From a virus: a stretch of DNA of 41,590 bases. Each line of letters opens with the position of its first letter. The first letter of the stretch is position 1. Location: the IMG/VR virus record IMGVR_UViG_3300043445_000063, positions 1-41,590 of that record. One strand, written 5' to 3'. The notes under the pieces were generated by a model. It saw only the letters and a program-made list of their open reading frames with translations, was not told the origin of the DNA and did not search any database. This document shows positions 23,055 to 41,590 of this stretch, piece by piece. The position numbers were made by a program, and so were the translations under genes.

Positions 23055-23105
23055 GGGGTCCGCCGTTATTCCCGTAAGAATGATGCACGGCGGTAGGGTG
23101 GACCC

Positions 23106-23549
23106 ATGCCGAACCACCCCACCAAGGCCCTGCTGAAGGCCGCGTCCGCCCACGCGCGGGCCATCGTGCTGGAGCTTCGCCCCCGCTACACGAGCGACGA
23201 CTCCTTCGCGAAGGCGCTCGGGGTCACGCAGAGCGCGGTCAACAAGTTCAAGAACGGCAAGGCCGAGCTAGGAACGCGGATGCTGCTGGGGATCGCGCAC
23301 CTCTCGGGCCGCTCCCTCGATGACGTCTGCGGCTTCGCTCGGATGCCGCACGCCCTCGACCCCTGGGAGATCGCCCGCCTCTACCTCTCCACCGGAGCGA
23401 CGCCGCAAGGGGTCTCCCTGGCCCGCGCCCGCAACGAGGGGCGCGTGCTGTCTCCGCGGGAGTGCGCGTCCCGCATCCTCGACGCCGAGCGCGATCTGTC
23501 CCTCGGTTCCGAGGACGACACGCACATCCGCACGAAGAACCACGCGTAA
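23106..23549 (+). CDS. XRE-family DNA-binding regulator (divergent)
   Basis: A 147-residue protein starting MPNHPTKALLKAASAHARAI with an HTH at about 38-70 (SDDSFAKALGVTQSAVNKFK, NGKAELGTRMLLGIAHLSG). The rest is helical with a C-terminal segment that could mediate dimer formation. It is transcribed away from the 22769-23017 repressor, with only 89 bp between their starts, as in phage lysogeny switches. Weak GGTGG before the ATG. The gene has no peptidase signature, so no LexA/CI-type self-cleavage is visible. Confidence 0.78.
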   Translation: MPNHPTKALLKAASAHARAIVLELRPRYTSDDSFAKALGVTQSAVNKFKNGKAELGTRMLLGIAHLSGRSLDDVCGFARMPHALDPWEIARLYLSTGATPQGVSLARARNEGRVLSPRECASRILDAERDLSLGSEDDTHIRTKNHA

Positions 23550-27359: not shown

Positions 27360-28375
27360 TGCAGCGCATGACGAACAGCCGCTTGCGCGCCTATCGACGG
27401 TGCCCGCGGCTGCACCACTACAGCTACAACCTCGGGATCCGCCCCGCGGTGGCGCACGAGAACCTCAGCTTCGGCACGCTGGTCCACGCGGCCCTGGAGG
27501 CCTGGTGGCTGGCCTCCGCCGAGTCCCCCGAGGATCGGCTGAATGCCGCGCTCCTGCCTCTGGAGAAAGAGCCCGACCCCTTCACGCGCGCCCGTGCCCG
27601 GGTGATGATCTACGGCTACCACGAGCGGTGGATCGATGCCTCGGACGAGTACGAGACGGTGGCCGTAGAGCGGGAGTTCGAGATCCCCCTCGTGAACCCG
27701 TCGACCGGCGCGGAGAGCCGCACCTTCACCCTGGCAGGCAAGGTGGACGCCATCGTGCGGAAGCGCGCCACGGGGGAGTTCTACCTCATGGAGCACAAGA
27801 CATCAGCCGAGGACGTGTCTCCGGGATCGGACTACTGGGCGCGCCTCGTGATGGACTCGCAGGTGTCGATCTACATCGGCGCCGCGGCATCCTCGGAGCC
27901 CGTGCAAGGGTGCCTCTACGACGTGCTCGGCAAGCCTGGGCAGAAGCCCTTGCAGGCCACCCCCGAGGCCGATCGGAAGTACACCAAGCCGACGAAGGCC
28001 GAGCCCACGCCGCGCCTGTACGCCAATCAGCGCGAGTCCGACGAGACGGTGGAGGAGTACGAGAGCCGGATGCTGGAGCACGTAGCGAGCAACGTTGATC
28101 GCTACTACGCGCGATCCACCGTCGTCCGCTTCGGGAGCGAGCTCCAGGCCGCCGCCGCCGACACGTGGCACGCCGCCCGGATGATCCGCGAGGCGCAGAT
28201 TCTGGACAGGCATCCACGGAACCCGGACGCCTGCCACACGCGCGGCTCCACGTGCATTTTCTTCGGTGTTTGCACTGGCACCGAGAGCCTGGATGATTCA
28301 AGATTCACCCGCGTGGAAAACGTACACGCGGAGCTTTCTCCGCGGCGGCTGCCCCTGGCTCCCGCTGCGGAATGA
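27359..28375 (+). CDS. RecB-like PD-(D/E)XK exonuclease with probable 4Fe-4S cluster
   Basis: A 338-residue nuclease of the RecB/Cas4-like PD-(D/E)XK type. Motif: SFGTLVHAALE with His43; LAGKVDAIV with Asp130; FYLMEHKTSA with Glu145-x-Lys147. Cys15 (CPRLHHY) and the C-terminal Cys292, Cys299 and Cys305 (CHTRGSTCIFFGVC) are in the layout that binds an iron-sulfur cluster in AddB and Cas4. It is followed by a RecA-like ATPase and an SSB-like gene, the standard exonuclease-annealase-SSB set of phage recombination. The ATG shares one base with the previous stop. Confidence 0.85.
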   Translation: MQRMTNSRLRAYRRCPRLHHYSYNLGIRPAVAHENLSFGTLVHAALEAWWLASAESPEDRLNAALLPLEKEPDPFTRARARVMIYGYHERWIDASDEYETVAVEREFEIPLVNPSTGAESRTFTLAGKVDAIVRKRATGEFYLMEHKTSAEDVSPGSDYWARLVMDSQVSIYIGAAASSEPVQGCLYDVLGKPGQKPLQATPEADRKYTKPTKAEPTPRLYANQRESDETVEEYESRMLEHVASNVDRYYARSTVVRFGSELQAAAADTWHAARMIREAQILDRHPRNPDACHTRGSTCIFFGVCTGTESLDDSRFTRVENVHAELSPRRLPLAPAAE

Positions 28376-28424
28376 CCCGAAGCCCCGAACAGCAGAACAG
28401 CAGATCTCGAAAGAGGAGAGACCC

Positions 28425-29417
28425 ATGCCGACCCCCATCCCCAAGCCCATCGCTCCCGTCGTCGCCCCCATCAAGCGGGCTCCCCGTGTCCGCCTCGCCG
28501 ATGCGACGAGCGGCGTCATCCACGGCCCGACCCGTGTGCTCCTGTTCGGCGTCGACAAGATCGGCAAGAGCACTTTCGGCGCCTGCGCGCCCGGACCGAT
28601 CTTCTTCGGCGCCGAGGACGGATCGAGCCAGCTCGACGTGTTCCGGTACCCTCAGCCGAAGGATGATGCGGGGGAGCCGCTCCCGTTCGAGTGGCCCGAT
28701 CTGCTGGATTGCATCGAGCAGCTCACGACGGAACAGCACCCCCACAAGACCCTCGTGATCGACACGGTGGATTGGCTGGAGCCGAAGATCCACGCCTGGA
28801 TTTGCCAGCGCGACAACAAGAGCAGCATCGAGGACTACGGCTATGGCAAGGGGTACACGGCCGCCCTGGACCAATGGCGCATCCTTGTCTCGCGGCTCGA
28901 CGCGCTGATCTATCGGCGCAAAATGAACGTGATCCTGCTCGGCCACGCCATCATCAAGACCTTCAAGAACCCGGAGGGGGAGGACTACGACCGTTTCCAG
29001 TTGGCCCTCAACGAGAAGGCGTCCGGGCTCCTGCGGCAGTGGGTCGACGCCGCCCTTTTCGCCAACCACGAAATCTACTCGGTCGCGTCGAAGGACGAGA
29101 AGCGCTTCCGCGGCGTGGCGACCGGGAACCGCGTGATCCACACGGAGCGGAGCGCGGCGTGGGACGCCGGCAATCGCTACAGCATCCCCGCGCAGCTTCC
29201 GCTCTCGTGGGACGAGTACTGGGCCGCCATCACCGCCCACGCGCCGAAGAGCCTCGCCGAGGTGACCGCCGAGCTCGCCGCCCTCGTGGCCCGCGTGCCC
29301 GAAGCCGCGCGCGCCAAGGTGCAGGAGCAGATCGACACGAAGGCCGGCAACGTCCCCGCGCTCGAGCGGTACGCCGCCGCGCTCCGCGAGAGACTCGACG
29401 CGGAGCAAGCGGCGTAG
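28425..29417 (+). CDS. RecA-like P-loop ATPase, Sak4-type recombinase
   Basis: A 330-residue protein with a RecA-core P-loop: LLFGVDKIGKSTFGACAP with Walker A GVDKIGKST (residues 42-50) and Walker B TLVIDTVDW (109-117), plus VILLGHAIIKTF as a sensor strand. The short size and placement between an exonuclease and an SSB-like gene match Sak4, an annealing/strand-exchange protein of phages. Residues ~245-320 form a helical C-terminal part. A strong AGAGGAG site precedes the ATG. Could also be a generic AAA_24-type ATPase; the neighbours favour Sak4. Confidence 0.82.
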   Translation: MPTPIPKPIAPVVAPIKRAPRVRLADATSGVIHGPTRVLLFGVDKIGKSTFGACAPGPIFFGAEDGSSQLDVFRYPQPKDDAGEPLPFEWPDLLDCIEQLTTEQHPHKTLVIDTVDWLEPKIHAWICQRDNKSSIEDYGYGKGYTAALDQWRILVSRLDALIYRRKMNVILLGHAIIKTFKNPEGEDYDRFQLALNEKASGLLRQWVDAALFANHEIYSVASKDEKRFRGVATGNRVIHTERSAAWDAGNRYSIPAQLPLSWDEYWAAITAHAPKSLAEVTAELAALVARVPEAARAKVQEQIDTKAGNVPALERYAAALRERLDAEQAA

Positions 29418-38206: not shown

Positions 38207-38433
38207 GGCGCACCGCCATCGGTGAGACACGCAGCGTCTGCCGCGAGCAGTTTCTCCGGCGTGTCGGCCCCGGCGTAGAGAACCTCGCACTGGTCCGCGA
38301 GGGCGCTCCCGCACCCGGAGAGCAGCGAGACGGCCAGCAGCGCGCCCATGATCGCCGCGAGCACCACCACGACGCCCAGCGCCGCGCTTGCTGCCCTACT
38401 GCCCCGGTCGTCCCTTACCTCGAAGTCGTCCAT
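38203..38433 (-). CDS. Small lipoprotein-like protein (possible outer-membrane spanin subunit)
   Basis: A 76-residue protein with a charged N-terminus, a hydrophobic stretch at about 18-38 and the lipobox LLSGC with Cys41, followed by a short exported part with two more Cys (DQCEVL, AACLTD). Outer-membrane spanin subunits (Rz1-type) are small lipoproteins next to the endolysin, so this is a fair candidate, though it lacks the usual Pro-rich region. GGAGG stands before the ATG at 38433. It supports a Gram-negative host. Confidence 0.6.
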   Translation of the reverse strand: MDDFEVRDDRGSRAASAALGVVVVLAAIMGALLAVSLLSGCGSALADQCEVLYAGADTPEKLLAADAACLTDGGAP

Positions 38434-38516
38434 CTCTCGGCCTCCTGACTGCTGCTTACCACACCAGCGACACCCACCCTTTGCGGCGCCCTTGCGCGGC
38501 GTGGTAGGGTGGCGAC

Positions 38517-38705
38517 ATGCCCAGCGACCCGCCCCCCGACCGCATCCTCATTGGTATCCCCGGCTCCGCCCCCGTCGAGGCGCGCCGCGTGGCCAAGCTA
38601 CACCTCACCCTCGACGCCGGCACCCCGAGCGGCGACGCCGACGCGCTCGCCGCCGAGCTTCAAGAGCTGCTCCAGTGCGAGGTGTCCGTCACGGTCGCCC
38701 CGTGA
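38517..38705 (+). CDS. Small unknown protein
   Basis: A 62-residue protein (MPSDPPPDRILIGIPGSAPV, AKLHLTLDAGTPSGDADALA) with an alpha/beta pattern. It is transcribed away from the lysis operon and ends in a GTGA overlap with the next gene. No family recognised. Confidence 0.55.
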   Translation: MPSDPPPDRILIGIPGSAPVEARRVAKLHLTLDAGTPSGDADALAAELQELLQCEVSVTVAP

Positions 38706-39427
38706 GCCTCGCCGACGCCGTCCACCTCGCCCAGCTCGCCGCCGCCGCGTCCCTCCTCGCCGCCGCCCGCCGAGCGCCAAGCCTGCGCACCGCGTCCCGC
38801 GTGATGGCCCTGAGCCTCCCGCTCGACGCGCTGCTCATGTTCGGCCGCGACGACGGCCGCGCCCTCTACCACGCAGCCCAGGCCGCGCAGGGGGCGTGGC
38901 TCGCCTGTGTCCTCGCAGCCGCCTACGCCCCGTCCCGGGCCGCCGTGGGCCTCTTCGTCGCACTGCTCGCCGCCGCCCTCTACCGGTGGCCCGCGCCCGC
39001 AACGCCGCTGTACGCCGCCGCGCAGGCCGTCACGGTGGCCGCATCGATCGCCGCCCTCGCCGCAGAGTACCGCCGCGCGCGCGCCCCGCTCCCCGGGCAC
39101 CTCGCCGCCGTGGTGCTGGTCGGCTCCGAGCTGGCGTGTCTCGTGGTGCCCTACCTGCTGGCCGCCTACCAGGGACGCCCCGTGGCGGAGCTTTGGGACG
39201 CCGCCCGCGTGGTGCGGCTGCTCACATGGGCCACGCTCGCCGTGGTAGGCTGGCGCTCGTGGTGCTCGCCGGGCTCGTGGTCGCTCTCCTCGTGGCGTGC
39301 GTCTGCGCGTCCGTCTGGGCCGCCTGGAACGCCCGAGCCGCCGCGCGTGCAACGGGGGCGCTGCTGGCCGAGAGGCGGGCAGCGCGGGAGCGGCGAGAAC
39401 GGGGCCGCGAGCGCCGGGCCGGGGTGA
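38702..39427 (+). CDS. Polytopic membrane protein, unknown
   Basis: A 241-residue frame from GTG at 38702. About seven hydrophobic segments lie in residues 1-185 (LAQLAAAASLLAAA, SLPLDALLMFG, ACVLAAAYAPSRAAVGLFV, PLYAAAQAVTVAASIAALAA, AVVLVGSELACLVVPYLLAA, LLTWATLAVVGW). The last 50 residues are Pro/Gly/Arg-rich and hydrophilic and overlap another frame. It might be a holin-like or lysogenic-conversion protein, but no family motif is visible. The C-terminal part may be different from the frame shown. Confidence 0.55.
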   Translation: MSLADAVHLAQLAAAASLLAAARRAPSLRTASRVMALSLPLDALLMFGRDDGRALYHAAQAAQGAWLACVLAAAYAPSRAAVGLFVALLAAALYRWPAPATPLYAAAQAVTVAASIAALAAEYRRARAPLPGHLAAVVLVGSELACLVVPYLLAAYQGRPVAELWDAARVVRLLTWATLAVVGWRSWCSPGSWSLSSWRASARPSGPPGTPEPPRVQRGRCWPRGGQRGSGENGAASAGPG

Positions 39428-39438
39428 CTTTGCACTGA
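39259..39438 (+). CDS. Small membrane-anchored protein overlapping the previous gene
   Basis: In another frame inside the end of the membrane protein gene, from GTG at 39259 or 39262: VLAGLVVALLVACVCASVWA is a single transmembrane segment, followed by a strongly basic helix (LLAERRAARERRERGRERRA). About 58 residues. Nested or overlapping membrane gene pairs are seen in phage spanins, but this pair is not in an Rz/Rz1 arrangement. Its reality depends on whether the upstream protein really continues in the other frame. Confidence 0.4.
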   Translation: MVLAGLVVALLVACVCASVWAAWNARAAARATGALLAERRAARERRERGRERRAGVTLH

Positions 39439-39481
39439 CGGTCAGGCCATAGGCTGGTAGCCAGCGCATCGGCATCCGTCG

Positions 39482-39508
39482 TCATGCGTGCCAGTCTATC
39501 ACGGCGAG
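39482..39508. repeat. 27-bp direct repeat, copy 1 (left of methyltransferase)
   Basis: Plus strand TCATGCGTGCCAGTCTATCA followed by CGGCGAG; an identical copy lies at 41034-41060. It stands directly after the stop of the methyltransferase gene. Confidence 0.95.
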
Positions 39509-39510
39509 GC

Positions 39511-41037
39511 TCAGGAGGCTCGGGCGAGGAGGTCAAAGATCGTCACCTGTCTATCGGGCTCGGCCGGTGCCACGGGCTCGGGTACCACCGCCGCGATCCG
39601 CTGCTCGGCGATCTCGACGTAGTGGGCCTCGGCGTCGATGCCAATGAACCGACAGCCCTCCAACAGCGCGCCGCGCCCCGTGCTCCCGGAGCCGGTGAAC
39701 ATGTCGAGGACCACGCCGCCCGGGGGCGTCACGAGCCGCACGAGCCAGCGCATGAGGTTGTCGTGCTTGACGGTGGGGTGGTCGTTGCCGCGCTCGCCCT
39801 CGGCGGCGGAGAGGCCGTCCTCGCGCATGGCGCGCGGGGCCTTGGGGACGTAGCGGAAGGTCGGGAAGAAACGGGAGGCTCCGCCGGAGTCCGAATAGAC
39901 TTGTGTTTGATACCCACTTGCTTCGTGGCCGTTGAAGCCTATTCCGCCGCCACCGTTGATTCCGCTTTGCGTGCCACCTCCGCACGCGCTCCGCCGCTCC
40001 CCACTCTGCCGATCCAACTCCGCCACGGGGCACCCTTCGGCGCAGTCCCAGGCGGGGACGGTCTCGGCGCTGCCCGTCGTGCTTCTCCCGTTGACGCCAT
40101 CGCCATAAGCGTTCTTTGACAGGTCCGAACCCCGCGCCCCAGTTTCCACATTCCGCGAGGCCACCCGCGTCCCCACCTCCCGGCACCCCTCGGCGTGCGA
40201 GAACACGGTGTTTGTGGGCCAGCGGCCGAGCGGGTTGTTGCTCGGCTCGAAGCTCTTACCGGGCTCGAACATGCCAAGCGCGGCGCCTTCTCTATCGTCA
40301 GCGGCTGTCATCCCGCCCGTGCGGCCGTTCACCGTAGACCTGAAATGCTCGCCCCCGCTCGCCACCCGACAGGCATCCACATTGAGCCCGCCCGTCCCAT
40401 GCGCGAGGACGTTCGCCGCGACGGTGCCAATCAGGGGCTTGCGGGCGAGGATCCAGTGTTCCGAAGAGGGCTTGAGCGCAGTGCCCCAACCGCACCATTG
40501 GGCGGCTTCGGGGGTTGCAGGGGCGGTGATGGTGCCGCCCAGTTGCGCGTCCCCAGGCTTGTAGTTCTCTGCAAACGCCCCGGTCGTGTGCCCACTCCCG
40601 CCGCCCGTGCCATGGTGCCACCCGCCGCGCCCCACCACCTCCCGAACCGCCCCAGCCGCGGAGTCGATGGCCTTCGACACGTCCAAGCTTTTCGGAAACC
40701 CCGTCCCGAAGTGATGCGTCAGGACGTCGCGCACCTCGAAGCCCGCATCCTCGACGGCTGTGGCGGTCCAGTGTGACGTGCGAGGCAGAGCCCAAACGAC
40801 CGCGTGCCCGCCCGGCTTGAGCAACCGAAACGCGACGCGCATTCGCTCGGTCATCCAAGCCACCCACGCGGCGCGTCCGCCCTTGTCGTGGTCCCACCCC
40901 TTGCCCATGAAGCCGATCCCCGCGGGAGGGTCCGTCACGACCGCGTCAACCGAAGCATCGGGCAAGTCGAGGGTGATGCAGTCGCCGGTCAGCACAGCCC
41001 ACGACCGCGCGCCCGACAGAACCTCAGCAACGTTCAT
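39511..41037 (-). CDS. Beta-class DNA methyltransferase (N4-cytosine or N6-adenine)
   Basis: A 508-residue DNA methyltransferase of the beta class (catalytic motif first). VDAVVTDPPAGIGFMGKGWD near 30-49 holds DPP with Ala in place of the usual Tyr/Trp; this DPPAGI variant is known among phage methylases. Motif I is LDMFTGSGSTG at 444-454, with FIGIDAEAHYVEIAEQRI following. The 350 residues between are the target-recognition part and are Gly/Ser-rich. DNA protection against host restriction is the likely role. The ATG at 41037 lies in one of two perfect 27-bp repeats that flank the gene. Confidence 0.88.
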   Translation of the reverse strand: MNVAEVLSGARSWAVLTGDCITLDLPDASVDAVVTDPPAGIGFMGKGWDHDKGGRAAWVAWMTERMRVAFRLLKPGGHAVVWALPRTSHWTATAVEDAGFEVRDVLTHHFGTGFPKSLDVSKAIDSAAGAVREVVGRGGWHHGTGGGSGHTTGAFAENYKPGDAQLGGTITAPATPEAAQWCGWGTALKPSSEHWILARKPLIGTVAANVLAHGTGGLNVDACRVASGGEHFRSTVNGRTGGMTAADDREGAALGMFEPGKSFEPSNNPLGRWPTNTVFSHAEGCREVGTRVASRNVETGARGSDLSKNAYGDGVNGRSTTGSAETVPAWDCAEGCPVAELDRQSGERRSACGGGTQSGINGGGGIGFNGHEASGYQTQVYSDSGGASRFFPTFRYVPKAPRAMREDGLSAAEGERGNDHPTVKHDNLMRWLVRLVTPPGGVVLDMFTGSGSTGRGALLEGCRFIGIDAEAHYVEIAEQRIAAVVPEPVAPAEPDRQVTIFDLLARAS

Positions 41038-41060
41038 GCGTGCCAGTCTATCACGGCGAG
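41034..41060. repeat. 27-bp direct repeat, copy 2 (contains the methyltransferase start)
   Basis: Identical to 39482-39508. In gene direction the copy ends with ATGA, of which ATG is the methyltransferase start at 41037. The two copies are 1552 bp apart and have the same orientation. Confidence 0.95.
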
Positions 41061-41085
41061 ATAGGCCAGCACTGGAGCCACAGAG

Positions 41086-41313
41086 TCACGGCCGGAGACT
41101 GCTGGCCACCCCGTCGAAGAGGTCGGGCCCGCTGTCCCGCTCCTCTGACGCAGCCGCCGCGGGTGGCTCGCTGTCCCCCGCGAGCGCCCGCTCGGCCGCG
41201 GCATCATCGGCGCGGAACGCCTTGCTCGCCGCCATGGCCTGCGAGAACCGACGCCCCGACTCGAACACACCGGGGGCCGACAACCACTCACGCGCTCGCT
41301 GGATCATGCCCAT
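41086..41313 (-). CDS. Small unknown protein
   Basis: A 75-residue helical protein (MGMIQRAREWLSAPGVFESG, AMAASKAFRADDAAAERALA) with an acidic, Pro/Ala-rich C-terminus. The ATG at 41313 shares a base with the previous stop. No family recognised. Confidence 0.58.
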   Translation of the reverse strand: MGMIQRAREWLSAPGVFESGRRFSQAMAASKAFRADDAAAERALAGDSEPPAAAASEERDSGPDLFDGVASSLRP

Positions 41314-41573
41314 CACCCTTCTCCGCGGCGCGACGGTGGCGCCCTGTCTGTCATTCGGTCGATCCGCTCGTCCAGCGCCGCCACGCGCTGCTCAGCCTTG
41401 CGCGCGCGCGTCGCCGCCGTGCCCGCGATGGCCATCCAACGCCCAAGCTCTTCGGCGAACACCAGCCCCTGCCGGGTCAAGGCGCGGACCGTGTACGCCC
41501 AGCCGAAAGCCATCGCGATGATCACCAGGACCAGCACGCCGACGATCCCCAGCGTCTCGACCTCGCGGGCCAC
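41313..41573 (-). CDS. Membrane-anchored coiled-coil protein
   Basis: An 86-residue protein: a transmembrane segment ETLGIVGVLVLVIIAMAFGW near the N-terminus and then a charged helix (RARKAEQRVAALDERIDRMT). This is a type II membrane protein with a coiled-coil periplasmic or cytoplasmic part, as in inner-membrane spanins (Rz) or phage holin accessories. The given start is GTG at 41573, but the frame stays open to the window edge, so the true start may lie outside. Confidence 0.6.
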   Translation of the reverse strand: MAREVETLGIVGVLVLVIIAMAFGWAYTVRALTRQGLVFAEELGRWMAIAGTAATRARKAEQRVAALDERIDRMTDRAPPSRRGEG

Positions 41574-41590
41574 GCCTACCGCCTGCGCCG

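Follow-up and report, generated by a model that had tools for sequence, protein, structure and literature searches.

A phage moron is a single foreign gene that is placed between two phage genes and has its own expression signals. Short repeated sequences at gene starts are known from the cluster K mycobacteriophages, whose start-associated sequences have a GGGATAGGAGCCC-like core and are present in many copies (PMC3203893). Leaderless cellular genes of high-GC bacteria have as their signature a TANNNT element that precedes the start by about 12 nt (PMC3160421), and cassette arrays containing DNA methyltransferases are known from phage integrons (PMC9892861). Searches of the open-licence literature returned no account of phage genes flanked by duplicated junctions.

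The DNA stretch analyzed here, the window, is a 41.6-kb (41,590-base) tailed-phage contig with a GC content of 70%. Genes for the helicase, primase, TerL, portal, protease and capsid are located on the minus strand, while a Sak4-like annealing protein (28266-29417) and small genes are encoded on the plus strand. A methyltransferase gene ends a minus-strand gene run, which converges with a plus-strand run, and on each side of the gene stands a copy of TCATGCGTGCCAGTCTATCACGGCGAG (Table 1). The two copies are identical at 27 of 27 positions and have the same orientation, and the identity extends no further on either flank. Read on the methyltransferase strand, the 27-mer is CTCGCCGTGATAGACTGGCACGCATGA. 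No exact repeat in the window is longer; the next are a tandem 22-mer and then a 20-mer, and with up to three mismatches allowed only the two copies are found, compared to none in dinucleotide shuffles of the window. The sequence, the repeat search and the shuffles thus bear out the pair as it was described in the initial annotation, including its positions, identity and orientation. The outer copy was also correctly named as the source of the ATGA start, since the methyltransferase ATG (41037-41035) lies in copy 2. The repeats had further been placed exactly at the stop and the start of the gene, which is accurate for the start but not for the stop: the stop codon occupies 39513-39511 and copy 1 begins 2 nt past it, in a 72-nt gap between the convergent runs. 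An Rfam search of positions 38300-41590 returned no family. Elsewhere in the window, a tandem repeat with a 12-bp period (AGAGAGGGCGGC) is found at 2651-2684 in the minus-strand structural region.

Table 1. Features at and around the methyltransferase locus in the window, and loci with recurrent elements in other phages.
Feature	Position	Strand	Description
27-bp repeat copy 2	41034..41060	-	extended -10-like TGATAGACT, 7 nt, ATGA
27-bp repeat copy 1	39482..39508	-	identical to copy 2; ATGA at end
508-aa beta-class DNA N6/N4 methyltransferase	39511..41037	-	occupies the interval between the 27-mer copies
Degenerate third copy, 21/27	39236..39262	+	GTG start (39259) of small membrane-protein ORF ending at 39438
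Related start block TGGTAGGGTGGCGACATG	38502..38519	+	start of ORF 38517-38705
Related start block CGGTAGGGTGGACCCATG	23091..23108	+	first gene (23106) of plus-strand run
76-aa small upstream gene	41086..41316	-	its end 25 nt before copy 2
86-aa small membrane-protein gene	41313..41573	-	upstream, same run as 76-aa gene
87-aa ORF opened by copy 1	39222..39485	-	antisense to plus-strand ORF ending at 39438
TTGAC-leader loci			L007, L012, L014, L015, L018, L025, L030, L037, L040, L049, L054
77-aa gene loci			L202, L206, L208, L214, L223, L224, L229

The identification of the gene between the repeats as a DNA methyltransferase is confirmed by matches to PF01555 (87.7 bits, cut-off 26.7) and phrog_67 (E 7e-57). 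Its GC content is 0.685 versus 0.703, and the GC and codon signals are in keeping with the phage. In place of motif IV, (D/N/S)PP(Y/F/W), whose fourth residue is aromatic, the enzyme has DPPA, as do the relatives L001, L082 and L108, and DPPY is present in 115 relatives; the DPPA in motif IV makes the enzymatic activity of this clade uncertain.

Read along the gene, the 27-mer contains TG-A-TAGACT 7 bases before the ATG and has no Shine-Dalgarno sequence. The TAGACT element starts 13 nt ahead of the ATG and is found three times in the window, twice within the 27-mer copies. As this spacing matches the published signature of leaderless genes, the 27-mer is predicted to combine a leaderless promoter of the extended -10 type with a start codon, although the published genes are cellular. 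Related blocks are present at other ORF starts. A site as close as the 21/27 third copy was found in only one of 200 shuffles, and the pattern TAGNNTGG-N4/5-RTG has five occurrences in the window, where 0.175 are expected, all at ORF starts (23106, 38517, 39259 and both 27-mer copies); the pattern was built with four of the five sites in view, and only 38517 is independent. GACTGGCACNNATGA at the helicase start (19675) is in the right register but has no TANNNT and was retained as weak kin only, and a sigma-54 promoter reading of TGGCAC was ruled out by the wrong spacing. Among all the start blocks only the pair flanking the methyltransferase is identical, the others matching at 21/27 or less, which suggests that the pair was duplicated recently relative to the other blocks. 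The cluster K start-associated sequences are likewise short repeated start blocks in one orientation that may overlap an upstream stop; however, the sequence is different, the window has two perfect copies (the only ones at up to three mismatches) and three loose kin, and in the window the block is tied to a presumed gene insertion. A dedicated recombination site fits these observations less well than a promoter or start block of which further ORF starts have degenerate versions. The 87-aa ORF opened by copy 1 had no match in family searches and has no clear coding signal, and, being antisense to a plus-strand ORF, it is probably either a remnant of a gene formerly behind the start block or a chance ORF.

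The exact 27-mer and its core of 18 specified bases had no match in IMG/VR, a 21-mer core had none in GTDB genomes, and in the collections searched relatives of the window phage were found neither via TerL nor via the site-flanking genes, therefore the comparison turned to other phages that encode a methyltransferase of this family. In 80 viral and 80 genomic loci, the sequence around the start of each gene was compared with that around its stop. Direct repeats at start and stop were found for 7 of 133 distinct methyltransferase genes and for 7 of 932 neighboring genes of at least 150 aa, two of the latter seven being DNA methyltransferases themselves. The enrichment has a p of 0.0007, or 0.003 without the window and 0.017 without the weak cases; a 20-bp repeat of low-complexity AT sequence in L137 is weak and is counted among the seven. 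Specificity for methyltransferases is not claimed, since small genes show such leaders too. The repeat is different in sequence in every case and also varies in length (18, 26 and 36-62 bp): in the window the block resembles a promoter, in L052 it is a junction of the Shine-Dalgarno/overlap type, in L080 it is an overlap of stop and start, and in L002 and L155 it is a leader that includes a Shine-Dalgarno sequence. Common to all of the blocks is what the next gene needs for expression. The locus L043 was dropped as an insertion case because its sister L044 has the methyltransferase without the repeat of L043, and the cultured phages Xeno, LOCV5 and Murphy have the methyltransferase gene and no flanking repeats; the gene can thus stand without repeats, and repeats do not always go with an insertion.

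Several of the surveyed loci have further arrangements of leaders. In L002 (2160-6044) three different DNA methyltransferases (N6/N4, C5 and N6/N4) stand in a row with the same 36-62 bp leader repeat behind each, forming a cassette array; a search for neighbors of L002 by its primase returned only L002 itself. In L155 (448-1740), two different tandem methyltransferases have a common 37-bp leader consisting of a Shine-Dalgarno sequence, a TTG start and the first codons. A leader composed of TTGAC, a short inverted repeat and ATG recurs directly upstream of the methyltransferase in 11 loci (Table 1). By eye, its arms vary between the phages with complementarity kept, and the element looks like a structured promoter or operator.

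An empty site is found in a pair of sister phages. In L080, a 26-bp block, AGGACGCGAGCCTCTTCACATGGTGA, precedes the methyltransferase and is present again at the end of the gene; the block comprises the last codons of the upstream gene and its stop overlapping the next start. The sister L172 has no methyltransferase and a single block, and its upstream gene is joined directly to a RusA-like gene, with 83-87% identity between the two phages on both flanks. The two copies in L080 are identical and that of L172 differs from them at 4 bases, which indicates that the duplication postdates the split of the two phages, barring gene conversion.

A second, unrelated group includes filled, empty and alternatively occupied junctions. 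In L052, an 18-bp block, GGAGGCCACCGCGTGACG, stands on both sides of the methyltransferase, while L189-L192 have one block and no gene, with identities of 91-97% upstream and about 93% downstream (96.7% and 93.4% for L052 and L189). The filled L077 and the empty L190 are 100% identical over the 391 nt that end with the block. At 77 loci with the L052-type upstream gene, the junction is empty in 61, followed by a 77-aa gene in seven (Table 1), by this methyltransferase in two and by a different methyltransferase in one (L250), and in the remaining six the next gene is not visible. The 77-aa gene (MIWDVNQAEPW...) carries its own left linker, GGAGGTGTCCGC, at this junction. In L221, L222 and L233 a methyltransferase is located one junction further along the operon. 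The methyltransferases of the group have common 3′ ends of their own (TTGGAGGCCACNGC(A/G)TGAC), and because of this common linker an exchange via existing linkers is inseparable from a fresh duplication. The swap site suggested in the initial annotation stands in so far as one junction in this group does act as one, holding varied genes or none.

As a dedicated site, the swap site is not supported, given the kin blocks at ORF starts and a repeat that differs per phage group, and similar leader duplications around small non-methyltransferase genes in L001, L082, L096 and L210 also speak against it. Such duplications suggest that the phenomenon concerns single-gene units at junctions and not methyltransferases alone. 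In L082 (1062-2196, minus strand), L001 (4563-6200) and L096 (9510-10862), several small genes per locus are preceded by near-identical leaders of 20-33 bp with a Shine-Dalgarno sequence and a start codon, which resemble start-associated sequences. In L210 (1839-2236), a 127-aa gene is flanked by perfect 18-bp copies of CGGGAGGCGACCCGATGA, and by alignment the corresponding junction in the relatives L194, L204 and L255 lacks such a gene. In phage Nerujay (L164), AACTTGAATCGTAAC is found upstream of the methyltransferase (2927) and at its stop (4068). This repeat resembles Bxb1-type stoperators, which suggests that a repeat at the edge of a gene can serve as a repressor site.

The best reading of the window, which we regard as modestly probable, is that one gene was inserted at a junction between genes and that the initiation block was duplicated in the process. 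The 27-mer would be a gene-initiation block consisting of TG-N-TAGACT, 7 nt and ATG, and the methyltransferase would have joined the end of the minus-strand run as a single gene at a junction formed by such a block. On entry the block would have been doubled: the upstream copy would provide the newcomer with its promoter and start codon, and the other copy would remain ahead of whatever came next. The duplication probably arose via short-homology recombination between gene junctions, and it may have been retained because both the newcomer and its downstream neighbor stay expressed. The block is a presumed promoter, and the methyltransferase may have an anti-restriction role. The preference for insertion over loss depends on the identity of the copies and the rarity of the filled state. 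The empty-site evidence is direct in the two unrelated groups (L080/L172 and L052/L189-L192) and analogous for the window phage, so that the idea of an inserted gene at a swap site is supported there by analogy. Counting against the insertion reading, the gene behind copy 1 is not recognizable. The arrangement resembles a moron in being one gene of a non-essential cargo type with a promoter-like block of its own, and in the analogous cases of L080 and L052 also in the absence of the gene from sisters with continuous flanks; the difference is that perfect copies of the target junction's initiation block stand on both sides of the insert in the window.

Alternatively, the copies might be a mere start-associated or regulatory repeat, with the methyltransferase lying between two of them by chance and no insertion being implied. 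That three further ORFs in the window have kin blocks at their starts is consistent with this, as is the presumed stoperator match of the Nerujay methyltransferase-border repeat. The cluster K start sequences, some of which overlap an upstream stop codon, provide a further parallel (PMC3203893). However, only the flanking pair is identical, the other members matching at 21/27 or less, copy 1 stands in the gap where genes converge and transcription from it would run against the plus-strand gene, and the empty-site pairs in other phages tie the duplicated block to the gene; we therefore consider this explanation rather doubtful, though it is the main rival. It appears unlikely that the methyltransferase and its leader were duplicated in tandem and that the second gene was then lost, leaving its leader in place: L155 and Xula do have two adjacent methyltransferase genes with similar starts, but behind copy 1 there is no methyltransferase remnant, and L172 and L189 have clean empty sites with the neighbors directly joined.

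A site-specific integron-type cassette or a transposon with target duplication is very unlikely. The phage integron arrays likewise have single genes, methyltransferases included, between repeats (PMC9892861), but the attC core pair (GTTRRRY and RYYYAAC) is absent at the 27-mer copies, for which the integron reading was rejected, and the repeats vary in length and sequence between phages. As for a transposon, the methyltransferase ORF fills 39511-41037 and leaves no room for a transposase or recombinase. An assembly artefact is hardly credible. The sequence is a metagenome contig, and 27 is a k-mer size used in some assemblers; however, a repeated k-mer breaks contigs and does not join them unless spanned by reads, the pattern recurs in other contigs with repeats of 18, 26 and 36-62 bp, and the GC and codon signals of the methyltransferase fit the phage.

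Beyond the window, a tentative generalization of the insertion reading would make any expressed junction a cassette slot, where single genes may be gained or lost with duplication of the initiation block (a promoter or Shine-Dalgarno sequence with a start codon, often with the preceding stop), the block itself serving as the substrate for loss or exchange; as part of the same tentative proposal, methyltransferases would use such duplicated-junction slots often. It is an old question whether single genes come to lie precisely at phage gene boundaries via shared linkers or through selection of random joints, and L080/L172, L052/L189 and L077/L190 provide concrete insertion events with ends readable to the base. 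The duplicated junctions predict a measurable reverse reaction, namely gene loss by recombination between the copies. The findings point to a way for phages to slot single genes into working operons and bear on how phages may gain protection against restriction.
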